DNA from: a virus
Virus record (IMG/VR): IMGVR_UViG_3300010885_051426
Span: 1 to 64,000 of that record
DNA: 64,000 nucleotides
Direction: 5' to 3' (one strand)
The notes under the pieces were generated by a model. The model saw only the letters and a program-made list of their open reading frames with translations, was not told the DNA's origin and ran no database searches. Shown here in pieces: positions 57,609 to 62,156 of the stretch (within the stretch, counting starts at the first letter, position 1; the number at the start of each line of letters is the position of its first letter). Position numbers and translations under genes: made by a program.

Positions 57609-58061
57609 ATGTATTCTAATAATGTTTATAAAGGTCGTTACCGTGTTATTAATTATAAAAAATACACTGGTAATCCTAACAATGTAATTTATCGCAGTTT
57701 CTGGGAATTTAAATTCATGAAATACTGTGATAACAATCCCAATGTGTTAGAATGGGGCAGCGAGGAAATCGTCATACCTTATTTATCACCGGTGGATGGT
57801 AAAGCACACAGATACTTTGTAGATTTTTATATGAAAGTACAGGACAGTGCAGGTAAAGTATCTAGGTATCTTATAGAAATTAAACCAGCTAAATTTACAC
57901 GACCACCCGAAATACCCAAACGACGCACCCGACAGTTCGTGCAGGAAGTATTTCAGTATGGAGTTAATCAGGCCAAATGGAAGAGTGCACGAGAGTTTTG
58001 TGAGAATCGTGGCTGGAAATTTGAGATAATCACCGAAAAAGAACTAGGACTGGATAAATAA
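57609..58061 (+). CDS. 4: Head completion protein (T4 gp4-like)
   Basis: The 150-residue protein equals T4 gp4 in length. VYKGRYRVINYKKYTGNPNNVIYRSFWEFKFMKYCD, EIVIPYLSPVDGKAHRYFVDFYM and YLIEIKPAKFTRPP are the conserved blocks. The FVDF and EIKP elements follow the restriction-endonuclease (TnsA-like) fold with acidic and lysine residues, so a nuclease-type role in trimming packaged DNA is possible. It is the first gene of the rightward late unit. Confidence 0.95.
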   Translation: MYSNNVYKGRYRVINYKKYTGNPNNVIYRSFWEFKFMKYCDNNPNVLEWGSEEIVIPYLSPVDGKAHRYFVDFYMKVQDSAGKVSRYLIEIKPAKFTRPPEIPKRRTRQFVQEVFQYGVNQAKWKSAREFCENRGWKFEIITEKELGLDK

Positions 58062-58063
58062 AC

Positions 58064-58621
58064 ATGGCCACACCGTTCGAAGCACTCAGAGTTGATGCTG
58101 CCAGTACTCGTCGCAGTCAGCAATGGTATCAACAGCAGATAAAAAATCTCAAGGACGTGCAATCACGAACCAGTGCAGCCATTAGACAGGGCGATCAGAA
58201 CATTGTTCCGGGTAATTTGTATCTGTTCAGATATGATCCCAAACACAAGGATACATTGCCTTATTATGATACCATGCCACTGGTGTTGCCCTTTGCCTGG
58301 GCTCAGGGTGGATTTTTAGGTATCAATCTGCATTATTTGCCCTATGGGCTAAGATTTAAGCTCATGGGAGCTTTGCTGGAACTGGTAACAGATATTTCAG
58401 ATCCCAAGAGCAGAGCCAGAGTAAGCTGGGCCATATTAAACAATACGGCTCGTTTCCCTGGAGTTGCACCCTGTGTTAAACATTATTTGGGTGCGCAGAT
58501 TCGCAGTAAATTTTTAAACATACCCAACGATCAATGGGTGGCAGCAAGCATGATGCCACTGGAGCAGTTCAAGGGTGCTACAAAAGAGCGCGTGTTTACA
58601 GACAGTAGGAGAATGGCCTAA
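58064..58621 (+). CDS. Conserved T4-superfamily protein of unknown role (185 aa)
   Basis: I recognise the block NLYLFRYDPKHKDTLPYYDTMPLVLPFAWAQGGFLGINLHYLP as conserved in cyanophage-like and other T4 relatives beside gp4, but I cannot give it a reliable name. The C-terminus (WVAASMMPLEQFKGATKERVF) is also conserved in feel. No catalytic motif or membrane segment is visible. It is coupled to the next gene by TAATG overlap at 58621. A head-completion or baseplate role is likely from context. Confidence 0.8.
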   Translation: MATPFEALRVDAASTRRSQQWYQQQIKNLKDVQSRTSAAIRQGDQNIVPGNLYLFRYDPKHKDTLPYYDTMPLVLPFAWAQGGFLGINLHYLPYGLRFKLMGALLELVTDISDPKSRARVSWAILNNTARFPGVAPCVKHYLGAQIRSKFLNIPNDQWVAASMMPLEQFKGATKERVFTDSRRMA

Positions 58622-59448
58622 TGGCTAGATTACCAGTAACACAAGTAACTGTTAAAACCACTAAAGTAAGTGGTGCAGCTAATTTTACTTTAAAAAACTT
58701 TTTAGCTGAAGTTCGTCGAGCTGGGCTGGCCAGACCAAACCGCTTTGAAATTCTTGTACAGCCACCTGGTGTGTTGTCTGGTACTGAAAGTCAGTTGGTT
58801 AGCCTCATGGCTGACGCTACATTGTTGCCTGGTAAACGAGTGTTAACTAGTCGTCAGCAACTATTTGGACCACCTGAATTTTTTCCTGTGGGGGTGGATT
58901 ATGGTGGTGACTCTTTAAACATACAATTCATAGTAGATCGTGAACTACGAACAAAATTATTTTTTGATTCCTGGATGGAACAAGTAATATCACCTACACA
59001 GAGTAATAATCGTACCTGGCACGCTACCAGATACAGATCTGACTACATAGGTCGTATTGTGATTAATCAGTTAGACGAAAGTGATTCTGTAATGTACAGT
59101 GTTACTGTGTATGATGTGTTTCCTGTGGCTATCAACCCCATGCAAATGGACAATAATATCACAGGAGCCGTACACAAGCTCAACGTATCATTTAACTATA
59201 GATACTGGGATACCAATCAGATAGCACCCAATACACGAGCCAATAGTTCTATCTGGAATGATATATTTGGCATATTTGGATCTAAATCAATTAACAATCC
59301 TGGGTTGCCTACATTGCCTGTTGTAGATACCAATACCAATCAGAGTCAATTTATTTTAACGCCGCAGCAGCAGGCTCAGAATGTATTACAACCAGGATCT
59401 AATCCAGGCACGGGTTCACAGGGTGGTGAGTTCTTTTTAATTAAATAG
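58621..59448 (+). CDS. gp54-like baseplate tube initiator / tube-fold protein (275 aa)
   Basis: The protein has the tail-tube fold order: ARPNRFEILVQPP, ATLLPGKRVLTSRQQLFGPPEFFPVGVDYGG, LNIQFIVDRELRTKLFFDSWMEQVISP, SVTVYDVFPVAINPMQMD and HKLNVSFNYRYW. This is related to gp19 and to gp54, the protein that initiates tube growth on the baseplate. A C-terminal 60-residue polar tail is rich in Gln/Asn and Pro. The location in the hub block (gp26 next) supports gp54. A separate tube paralogue (6638-7213) leaves some doubt. Confidence 0.68.
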   Translation: MARLPVTQVTVKTTKVSGAANFTLKNFLAEVRRAGLARPNRFEILVQPPGVLSGTESQLVSLMADATLLPGKRVLTSRQQLFGPPEFFPVGVDYGGDSLNIQFIVDRELRTKLFFDSWMEQVISPTQSNNRTWHATRYRSDYIGRIVINQLDESDSVMYSVTVYDVFPVAINPMQMDNNITGAVHKLNVSFNYRYWDTNQIAPNTRANSSIWNDIFGIFGSKSINNPGLPTLPVVDTNTNQSQFILTPQQQAQNVLQPGSNPGTGSQGGEFFLIK

Positions 59449-59460
59449 CAGGAGTAAATT

Positions 59461-60162
59461 ATGTCTTTGCCTCGCATTGATGTGCCGTCATATACCTGTA
59501 TGCTACCCAGCACGGGTCAGCAATTACAGTTTAGACCATTTTTGGTCAAAGAACAAAAGCAGTTACTCATTGCCATGGGCGGTGATGAACTAGAAAGATT
59601 TAACACAGTTAAAGCAGTTGTATCAGTATGTTTTGAAAATAATAAACTGGATGTTGATGCTCTGAGCTCAGCTGATTTAGAATTTTTGTTTTTACAGCTT
59701 AGAATACGCAGCGTTGGTGAATCCGTGGATTTAATTTTAACCTGTGCTGAATGTGGTAACAAACAGGATTCAGTACTGGATTTATTAAATGTGGTTGTTA
59801 CAACGCCAGCTGGTCATGTTAGAGACATTGAACTGGAACCAGGTCTGAGCATTAGTCTCAGAGACCCAGACATGGCACAGGTTGCTGCAATCAAACAGGC
59901 CACCACTGTAGATGAAATCATAGCTGTTATAGCTGGTTGCATAACAGGTATCTGGAAAGATGATGAATTTTTTGCTGCACAGGACTATAGTCACACACAA
60001 CTGGTGGAATTCATAGAAAATCTAAGTCCTCAGCATCTGGAACATTTTAATGAATTTTTTAAAACATTACCTACACTGACTCATACATTAAATTACAAAT
60101 GTAAAGAGTGTGGTGCAGATAATGCCGCAGTCCTGGAGGGACTGCAGAGTTTTTTCGTCTGA
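59461..60162 (+). CDS. 26: Baseplate hub assembly protein (T4 gp26-like), zero-frame product
   Basis: The 233-residue protein belongs to the T4 baseplate gp26 family: RPFLVKEQKQLLIAM, TVKAVVSVCFEN, DLEFLFLQLRIRSVGESVDL. Two CxxC pairs (TCAECGNK and KCKECGAD) could hold a zinc ion. The family parallels the lambda gpG tail chaperone. The last codons AGT TTT TTC form an in-frame slippery heptamer just before GTC TGA, so a fraction of ribosomes may shift to the -1 frame and add the gp51-like tail. An AGGAG site precedes the ATG. Confidence 0.9.
   Translation: MSLPRIDVPSYTCMLPSTGQQLQFRPFLVKEQKQLLIAMGGDELERFNTVKAVVSVCFENNKLDVDALSSADLEFLFLQLRIRSVGESVDLILTCAECGNKQDSVLDLLNVVVTTPAGHVRDIELEPGLSISLRDPDMAQVAAIKQATTVDEIIAVIAGCITGIWKDDEFFAAQDYSHTQLVEFIENLSPQHLEHFNEFFKTLPTLTHTLNYKCKECGADNAAVLEGLQSFFV
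60135..60156 (+). promoter_or_regulatory. Candidate -1 ribosomal frameshift signal (gp26 to gp51-like)
   Basis: The heptamer T TTT TTC lies at 60150-60156 in the gp26 frame. GGAGGG (60135-60140) sits 9 bases upstream, like the stimulatory Shine-Dalgarno sequence of dnaX. The -1 frame is open from 60150 to the TAA at 60348-60350. Confidence 0.7.
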
Positions 60163-60182
60163 TTCTTTCACACGAGACACTC

Positions 60183-60350
60183 ATGAACTATTATCAGACC
60201 AATTTTAGTCTCATGCAGTTTCATCAATATAGTCTAACCGAACTAGACAATATGTTGCCGTGGGAAAGAGAAATTTATGTGATGATGTTGGTCAATTATT
60301 TAAAAGAAGAAAATTTAAAACTTCAACAACAGAAAGCACAGGGAAATTAA
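60183..60350 (+). CDS. gp51-like hub/tail assembly protein, -1 frame partner of gp26 (55 aa alone)
   Basis: From the ATG at 60183 this frame encodes NYYQTNFSLMQFHQYSLTEL, then DNMLPWEREIYVMMLVNYLKEEN and a polar coiled-coil end. The PWEREIY-type motif is conserved in tail assembly proteins that follow gp26 in T4 relatives (T4 order 26, 51). The frame is open in the 5' direction across the end of gp26 to the slippery heptamer, adding RLILSHETL before the ATG. No strong ribosome binding site precedes the ATG. Both a separate protein and a gp26 fusion are possible. Confidence 0.75.
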   Translation: MNYYQTNFSLMQFHQYSLTELDNMLPWEREIYVMMLVNYLKEENLKLQQQKAQGN

Positions 60351-60351
60351 C

Positions 60352-60699
60352 ATGGCAAAAGAATACATGGCTGAACACATCAAGCAGGACAAAGAAGACT
60401 GGATGACTAAAAAATGGCGTCCCATGATGGCAATAACCTACATGGCCATCAATATTTTTGATTTTATTCTAGGACCAATATTGTTTAATCTATTACAATT
60501 TTGGAATCCAGGCCAGGCCATAGGTATGTGGCAACCGCTTACTCTGCAGGGTGGTGGTTTGATTCACATCAGCTTTGGTGCTATTCTGGGTGTAGCTGCC
60601 TGGACACGAGGTCAGGAAAAAGTAGAAGCAATTAAAAATCCTCCACCAGCACCAGCAGCTGAACCAGAGCCAGCACCCAACAGTAGATATGCTGAATAA
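60352..60699 (+). CDS. Holin-like membrane protein (115 aa)
   Basis: Two hydrophobic stretches are seen, about residues 25-50 (MMAITYMAINIFDFILGPIL) and about 67-86 (GGLIHISFGAILGVAAW). WRPMMAI, LTLQGGG and a GAILGVAAWTRGQEK end resemble the three-segment GTA-type holin family. The C-terminus is an Ala/Pro-rich tail of about 25 residues. A holin would open the inner membrane at lysis, but T4 holin (gpT) is different and I see no endolysin next to it. The gene shares its stop with the next start (TAATG). Confidence 0.65.
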   Translation: MAKEYMAEHIKQDKEDWMTKKWRPMMAITYMAINIFDFILGPILFNLLQFWNPGQAIGMWQPLTLQGGGLIHISFGAILGVAAWTRGQEKVEAIKNPPPAPAAEPEPAPNSRYAE

Positions 60700-62156
60700 T
60701 GACACAGGATCCTAATCAAAAGAATTTTGAGGACCTAACCAGTACTCGTATCAAGTCCAATAAAGTTGGGCTTGGTACAGTACATAAAGATCTACAGGAC
60801 ATACGACAAGAACTACGTGGTGATGCTTCTCTAAGTTCCAGTCCAGTAAATCCTTTGATTAGTCTTGTTCCAACCAAGAAGGAACAGAATAAAGACACTG
60901 GTGCACCCAGTCTGTTGGATCAACTCAAGATCAGTGCCATCATGGGTATCAAACAGGCCCTGGGAGTTGATACTGATCAGGATGCTGTTCCCACTACAAC
61001 ACCAGCAACCGGCAATCAACGCATCTATGATGAATTCATACAGCAGGTAAAACAGCAGCAGGATTTATTATTAGATGCCACCAAAGAACAGACTGACATA
61101 TTTAAACAACTGGAAGCTTCGGTAGAAAAATTAAAAACAGCCAATCATGAAGACAGCAGCAAATTATTAGCCAGCATAGATAAGTTGGCCAAACAGCTCC
61201 AGAGTACGCCAGATACCAAGGCCAAAAGTAACATTGAAAAAATGATGCCTTTGCAACAGGCTCGAGCTCAGGCTACTGCGGCACGTACCAGTTCCATAAT
61301 TGCTAACCCTGCCCCAGCTCCTCGCAGTGCAGCCATACCGGCTTTGTTACAATCAACACCAGCTGCTGCCTTATACGAAGATGCTGGATTGATCAGCAGT
61401 GAGAGCGAAGGTGATAAAGTACAGACTGGTGAACGAGAAGCCGACATGGCCTCCATATTGGGATTTCTGGGTAACATGATGTCTGGTGGCGGTGGCGGTG
61501 GCGGTGGTGTTGTTCCCATAATACCCAGGTCAGGTCCGCGCAAAACACCACCAGCATTACCAAAAACAAAACCAACTACCAGACCTACTCCGCCACGCAT
61601 TCCTGGTAATAAAGTTAAAACTCCTTCAGTCATGGACCGCGTCAAGAGTCCTGGTGCACGTTCAGTATTAAGCAAGGTTCCTTTTTTAGGTCCCTTGGTT
61701 ACTGGCGGCTTCATGGGCGCTGATGAATATGAAAAATCCGGTAATCTAGGCAAAGCCTTGGCAGTTGGTACGGGGTCTGCAGTAACTGGCGAAATTGGTG
61801 CATTGTTTGGTGCAGGCGCTGGATCATTGTTGGGCCCAGTAGGCACCTTTGGAGGTAGCATAGCAGGAGGTATAGCCGGAGCAACTGTAGGGGCAAATTC
61901 GGCCGGCAAGTTATATGATAAATTTACAGGCACACAACCAGATACCGTAAAACCCAATACTCAGGTTTTACAACAGACTCTGGAAAATAAACAATTGGCT
62001 ACTGAAGTTCAACAACAACCAGCTGCACCAGTGATCATCAACAATCAACAGACCGCGAGTAGCAATACACCACCAGCCTATATAGCACCTAGTTTAGAAA
62101 CTCGTCCCAAGGAAAGTGCTCTGGATCGCTACATCAATCGCCAGACAGTATACTAA
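60699..62156 (+). CDS. Probable tape measure / hub protein (gp29 position, 485 aa)
   Basis: The N-terminal half (about 100-200) is a coiled-coil region (EFIQQVKQQQDLLLDATKEQTDIFKQLEASVEKL in outline). An octaglycine run follows near residue 265, then a Pro/Thr-rich linker, then a hydrophobic Gly/Ala segment (about 335-410: FLGPLVTGGFMG, GALFGAGAGSLLGPVGTFGGSIAGGIAG). This order resembles tape measure proteins, which ride in the tube and help DNA cross the membrane. It follows the gp26/gp51-like pair, as tape measures follow G/GT in other phages. T4 gp29 is 590 aa. Homology is not shown. Confidence 0.5.
   Translation: MTQDPNQKNFEDLTSTRIKSNKVGLGTVHKDLQDIRQELRGDASLSSSPVNPLISLVPTKKEQNKDTGAPSLLDQLKISAIMGIKQALGVDTDQDAVPTTTPATGNQRIYDEFIQQVKQQQDLLLDATKEQTDIFKQLEASVEKLKTANHEDSSKLLASIDKLAKQLQSTPDTKAKSNIEKMMPLQQARAQATAARTSSIIANPAPAPRSAAIPALLQSTPAAALYEDAGLISSESEGDKVQTGEREADMASILGFLGNMMSGGGGGGGGVVPIIPRSGPRKTPPALPKTKPTTRPTPPRIPGNKVKTPSVMDRVKSPGARSVLSKVPFLGPLVTGGFMGADEYEKSGNLGKALAVGTGSAVTGEIGALFGAGAGSLLGPVGTFGGSIAGGIAGATVGANSAGKLYDKFTGTQPDTVKPNTQVLQQTLENKQLATEVQQQPAAPVIINNQQTASSNTPPAYIAPSLETRPKESALDRYINRQTVY

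Follow-up and report, generated by a model that had tools for sequence, protein, structure and literature searches.

The closest described counterparts of the locus analysed here are the tail assembly chaperones G and GT of phage lambda and the TAC-N/TAC-NC pairs of other long-tailed phages, in which a single gene yields a short form and, by −1 frameshifting, a long form, as is predicted here; their genes lie between the tail tube gene and the tape measure region, and the present locus follows a tail tube gene and precedes a possible tape measure gene. The lambda chaperones are required for assembly and absent from the particle; their slippery sequence, GGGAAAG, is unlike the T TTT TTC considered below, and no sequence similarity to lambda G or GT was found for the proteins of our window (the whole 64,000-nucleotide stretch of viral DNA that was analysed, positions 1 to 64,000 of IMG/VR record IMGVR_UViG_3300010885_051426). 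A −1 frameshift in the chaperone genes of a contractile tail is known from phage P2, in which E and E+E′ are made with the slippery sequence T TTT TTG, and to our knowledge these proteins and those of the window belong to unrelated families. T4 gp26 and gp51 are homologous to the window proteins, but T4 has two convergent genes where the window has one gene and a frameshift. Both T4 proteins were, it appears, identified as the tail assembly chaperones of T4-like phages by Vladimirov, Gautam and Davidson, reportedly in 2022 (Virology 566:9–15), and because of this naming the main identification counts as known; the fixed spacing of the Shine-Dalgarno (SD)-like element, the cyanophage stem-loop, the missing alternative starts and the one-gene/two-gene pattern, all described below, may or may not already be part of that work.

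The dnaX-type cassette, built from an SD sequence, a slippery heptamer and a stem-loop, is a further system of similar layout: all three elements occur in cyanophage members of the present family, although the dnaX-type heptamer is a different one and in the window only the SD-like sequence and the heptamer are clear. A review from 2016 describes the G/T frameshift as widely conserved in long-tailed phages "except T4" (PMC5009743). The TAC-N/TAC-NC genes of Pakpunavirus and the Vandenendeviridae have a conserved −1 frame and a poly-T motif, and their tail part is usually annotated as a hypothetical gene (PMC12846349); they are likened to the present locus by description, their motif being GTTTTT and their phage family a different one.

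All features of the locus in the window lie on the plus strand. The zero frame at 59461–60162 encodes a gp26-like protein of 233 amino acids, the putative short form (G, TAC-N), which matches PF12322 (T4_baseplate) with E 1.2e-52 and phrog_150 with E 1.9e-54, and which belongs to the T4 gp26 family by its PF12322 score of 179.2 bits against a curated cut-off of 24.5. At the 3′ end of this gene the codons read AGT TTT TTC GTC TGA, so that the heptamer T TTT TTC lies in the gp26 frame at 60150–60156; the SD-like sequence GGAGGG, the proposed stimulator, ends 9 nucleotides upstream of it (60135–60140), and the TGA at 60160–60162 terminates the short form. No stop interrupts the −1 frame between 60123 and a TAA at 60348–60350, and its translation across the heptamer reads FF-RLILSHETLMNYYQTNFSLMQFHQYSLTELDNMLPWEREIY.... 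The heptamer, the GGAGGG, the zero-frame stop and the −1 frame open to 60350 with its conserved PWEREIY-type protein had been named in a preliminary description of the locus, and all were found where it had placed them, with the PWEREIY-type motif recurring in relatives.

The −1 frame tail domain (T) occupies 60156–60350, with 64 codons after the shift and a stop, and is kept in all relatives. It matches phrog_634 ("baseplate hub assembly catalyst", the gp51 family; E 1.6e-23); a further match, to the final portion of phrog_150, gave a first hint of family members with both parts in one chain. The predicted fusion joins 59461–60156 to 60156–60347 and has 232 + 64 = 296 amino acids; the C-terminal peptide predicted for the short form is ECGADNAAVLEGLQSFFV and the predicted trans-frame peptide of the fusion is ECGADNAAVLEGLQSFFR. 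At the level of sequence, the locus encodes a short and a long form that share their N-terminal domain. A scan of 65 open reading frames of at least 100 amino acids on both strands of the window returned 79 in-frame X XXY YYZ sites, among which the heptamer at 60150–60156 is the only one that both lies near its stop and leads into a long −1 extension; a second match, on the minus strand and 238 nucleotides upstream of the stop in a 103-codon frame, is probably spurious. The whole 65.6-kb IMG/VR record that contains the window has one PF12322 gene.

A tail tube protein gene (58621–59448; phrog_45 tail tube, E 1.8e-31) lies immediately upstream, in the position that the tube gene takes before G/GT, and is followed by the gp26 gene with its −1 tail, by a gene for a holin-like small membrane protein (60352–60699; phrog_3427 holin, E 1.7e-5) and by a possible tape measure or tail lysin gene (60699–62156; 485 amino acids), identified by weak matches to phrog_1047 (E 2.6e-5) and phrog_973 tape measure (E 5e-4). 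The preliminary description had noted that the gene after the holin-like one looks like a tape measure; the tape measure identity comes from these weak profile matches. As a side observation, the head-closure gene at 57609–58061 (phrog_218, in the position of T4 gp4) gives a strong match to the N-terminal Pfam domain of TnsA-like endonucleases (E 1.6e-24).

The layout recurs throughout the relatives of this phage. A first scan of viral contigs yielded 22 loci with a complete junction, and the in-frame TTTTTT[C/A] just upstream of the stop and the −1 tail are kept in all 22; the tail consensus is R-[LI]-x-LSHE-x-L-x-NYYxTNF...YSLxExxxMxPWEREIY. The same arrangement was seen in the named phages S-PM2, P-SSM2, HTVC008M, Cr30 and a KVP40-type Vibrio phage, and also in Rhizobium phage AF3, Acidovorax phage ACP17, Aeromonas phage phiAS5 and Stenotrophomonas phage YB07. 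The preliminary description had proposed the conservation of heptamer and frame as a check, and relatives that encode the same two proteins with no slippery site, or with a stop in the −1 frame between them, as the outcome that would speak against it. T TTT TTN stands in frame, together with an uninterrupted −1 frame for the same C-terminal domain, in 192 of the 193 relatives with readable junctions, the sole exception being a Kuttervirus. Two groups stand outside these 192 loci, namely the T4-type phages, which have two genes, and the Ackermannviridae together with Vibrio phage D524, in which the tail occupies the −1 frame but T TTT TTN is missing (three Ackermannviridae gp26 3′ ends, L032, L213 and L214, and the D524 locus, L211). 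The tail in the latter group may be reached either by another slip site (U UUC) or by reinitiation; the Ackermannviridae junction GA[AG]ATTTTCATTTAAT.TTTGAAA is strongly conserved. Three further records deserve mention. The tail region is unannotated in the cyanophage records KJ019057 (L221) and OR003938 (L222), despite a slippery site and an open −1 frame. In Pseudomonas phage PA5oct (L212, 2456–3310) a gp26-like gene contains TTTTTTC in frame, 16 nucleotides before its stop, and the product of its open −1 frame has no match to the tail profile.

The comparison with T4 bears on what the two products are. T4 gp26 (208 amino acids) and gp51 (249 amino acids) both match PF12322, with E 9e-64 and 4e-52, respectively. 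In a small test set, a profile built from the −1 tails only matched the C-terminus of T4 gp51 with E 9e-7 and did not match the T-even gp26 proteins; it also matched Aeromonas gp51 (1e-11) and Va1_277 (2e-12). T4 gp26 stops, with ...RGLKEFFELL, at the position that the end ...EGLQSFFV of the short form has in the frameshift phages. These tail-profile matches, together with the position of the gp26 end, indicate that T4 gp26 is equivalent to the short form, and that gp51, which is a gp26-like domain plus tail, is a hard-wired long form. The preliminary description was correct that T4 has separate genes 26 and 51, but its pairing of gp51 with the small downstream reading frame does not stand, because gp51 consists of a full gp26-like domain and the tail. 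One record, L206 (2501–3246), has a T4-type gp51 gene broken mid-way by a reading-frame break, which is either natural or a sequencing error.

Among 14 phage records searched for PF12322, a single such gene was found in 10 of the 10 with a −1-frame tail (nine with T TTT TTN, and Klebsiella phage Magnus), and two were found in T4, Aeromonas phage 60AhydR15PP, Acinetobacter phage W16 and Vibrio phage Va1. In Va1 the two PF12322 genes are adjacent and on the same strand (L215, 1878–3220), the first type being short and the other carrying the tail, so that the counterparts of G and GT are tandem genes there, whereas in T4 they are convergent. In a tree built from the gp26 domain, gp26 and gp51 of the T-even phages cluster with support 96, each copy being monophyletic (99 and 100), and the Va1 pair is joined with support 68. 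The T-even part of the tree fits one duplication in that lineage, with branches long enough for attraction to be possible. We regard as tentative, and as rather doubtful, the wider proposal that the ancestral T4-like locus relied on the −1 frameshift, stimulated by an SD-like element and, in the cyanophages, by a stem-loop too, and that T4 represents a derived loss, the gene having been duplicated in the T-even line and separately in the Va1 line, with the short and the long form each fixed in a copy of its own.

Signs of selection on the junction itself were sought in 85 loci that remained after dereplication at 80% protein identity. TTT occupies the first slippery position in 85 of 85, against a background of 675 TTT among 915 Phe codons (74%, TTC being 26%), and of the 76 loci that encode Glu within the GGAGGG element, 61 use GAG, against a background of 27.5%; the corresponding P values, about 6e-12 and 1.6e-21, are overstated because the loci were treated as independent though related. 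The second slippery codon is TTA or TTG in some loci, which is still compatible with tandem tRNA slippage. An SD-like 4-mer is present within 20 nucleotides upstream of the heptamer in 76 of the 85 loci, compared with 12% in random stretches of the same genes, and its core lies at the identical 9-nucleotide spacing in 64 of the 85. At closer range, the junction block 60125–60226 (plus strand, 102 nucleotides) is identical between the window and one relative, L002, and extends to 60241 (117 nucleotides) with L003–L006, gp26 being 73–76% identical there; in the comparison of the window with L002–L006, synonymous changes affect none of 23 comparable codons at the beginning of the tail, but 42–45% of the conserved gp26 codons. 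Recombination could contribute to this identical block.

Downstream RNA structure varies between clades. In those cyanophages whose fifth tail codon is ATG (43 sequences), a stem-loop begins 5 nucleotides after the heptamer; 86.9% of the cells of the stem are paired against 28–47% for slid versions, a count that used a named structure partly derived from the same sequences, and its covariation score exceeds all 500 shuffles. RNAalifold predicted no pair in the 43-sequence junction alignment. Across the whole set, downstream folding is modestly stronger than in control stretches (mean z −1.26 vs −0.31), and in L016 another stem, of 8 bp, is found equally far from the heptamer (z −2.94). The window has no clear downstream stem-loop, but a weak possible stem, GUCUGAU...AUCAGAC, at 60157–60199 (plus strand, z −1.63). 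As for stimulatory elements in general, the SD-like sequence is found in most loci and the stem-loop in the cyanophage clade only.

The reading that we prefer, with a probability of roughly 0.92, is that the gp26 gene of this marine T4 relative ends in a conserved programmed −1 frameshift cassette that would give rise to two tail assembly chaperones of different length. Most ribosomes would stop at 60160 and release the 233-residue protein; a minority would pause where GGAGGG pairs with 16S rRNA, move back by one base on U UUU UUC and translate onwards in the −1 frame, producing a 296-residue protein (GT, TAC-NC) with an extra 64-residue helical tail. By analogy with lambda, both forms may coat the tape measure protein, the tail part may recruit tube subunits, and neither would stay in the virion. 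We infer both that frameshifting proceeds at a useful rate and that GGAGGG stimulates it, and a chaperone role is suggested by synteny, by the short/long logic and by T4 genetics, in which gp51 is needed for assembly yet absent from the particle (PMC3004832). The AlphaFold model of gp26 (pLDDT 93.6) has the HK97 gp13 chaperone (2OB9, 2ob9_A) as the most probable among the listed PDB matches, at 0.63, a weak match with E 1.0 and a TM-score of 0.49 relative to the target; 2OB9 is absent among the best 50 structure matches of the T4-type gp51 model. The proposal of the preliminary description, that the G/GT logic exists in this T4 relative, is supported by the 192 of 193 junctions and by the one-gene/two-gene pattern.

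The annotation of gp51 as a gene of its own in public records corresponds to a different reading, according to which gp26 and a small gp51-like protein (60183–60350, plus strand, from the ATG at 60183) are separate genes coupled by reinitiation, the T run being incidental. A weak ACGAG precedes this ATG, and in many cyanophages an ATG lies 5 codons after the heptamer, directly past the stop, where it could be used by reinitiation. However, in 29 of the 85 loci no ATG, GTG or TTG is present in the tail frame ahead of the conserved motif, and frameshifting is the only explanation of the tail in those loci. The residues RLILSHETL that precede the ATG at 60183 are conserved in the −1 frame even in L007 and L008, in which this ATG is replaced, and the codon appears dispensable for the tail; the slippery TTT is never TTC, and the tail is fused to a gp26-like domain in T-even gp51 and in Va1_277. 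We consider separate genes very improbable, and as the sole account of the family this reading was rejected on the 29 loci that have no start codon. It is less improbable, but still unlikely, that both processes operate, the fusion being made by frameshifting and some free tail domain by reinitiation where an ATG is well placed: Vibrio phage PVA8, Cr30 and Rhizobium phage AF3 combine a TAATG or TGATG overlap with the conserved heptamer, but the free tail domain has no known role, and conservation of the ATG does not extend through the family.

Two further readings concern the run of six T residues, which is conserved and is of a kind on which polymerase slips in some systems. Against such transcriptional slippage in place of ribosomal slippage stand the fixed spacing of the SD-like element, the phase of the heptamer, the TTA and TTG second codons and the downstream stem-loop, all of which are in keeping with slippage of the ribosome, and we give this reading slightly less credit than that of separate genes. 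Homopolymers of this length are also classic sites of sequencing or assembly error, which might have split one gene in two, but the same frame relation is present in 192 loci, including the finished genomes of S-PM2, P-SSM2 and KVP40-type phages; an error was rejected on this recurrence and retains a negligible probability.

The programmed frameshift, as the preferred reading, would correct how these two genes are annotated in hundreds of phages, marine ones among them, the tail domain being present in 586 phage records; at present gp51 either appears there as a hub assembly catalyst in its own right or is missing from the annotation. It would also amount to a natural experiment, in which one and the same pair of proteins comes from a single gene, through a tuned slippage ratio, or from two genes as in T4, and by which the ratio of short to long chaperone that assembly requires would become testable in the best-studied contractile tail.
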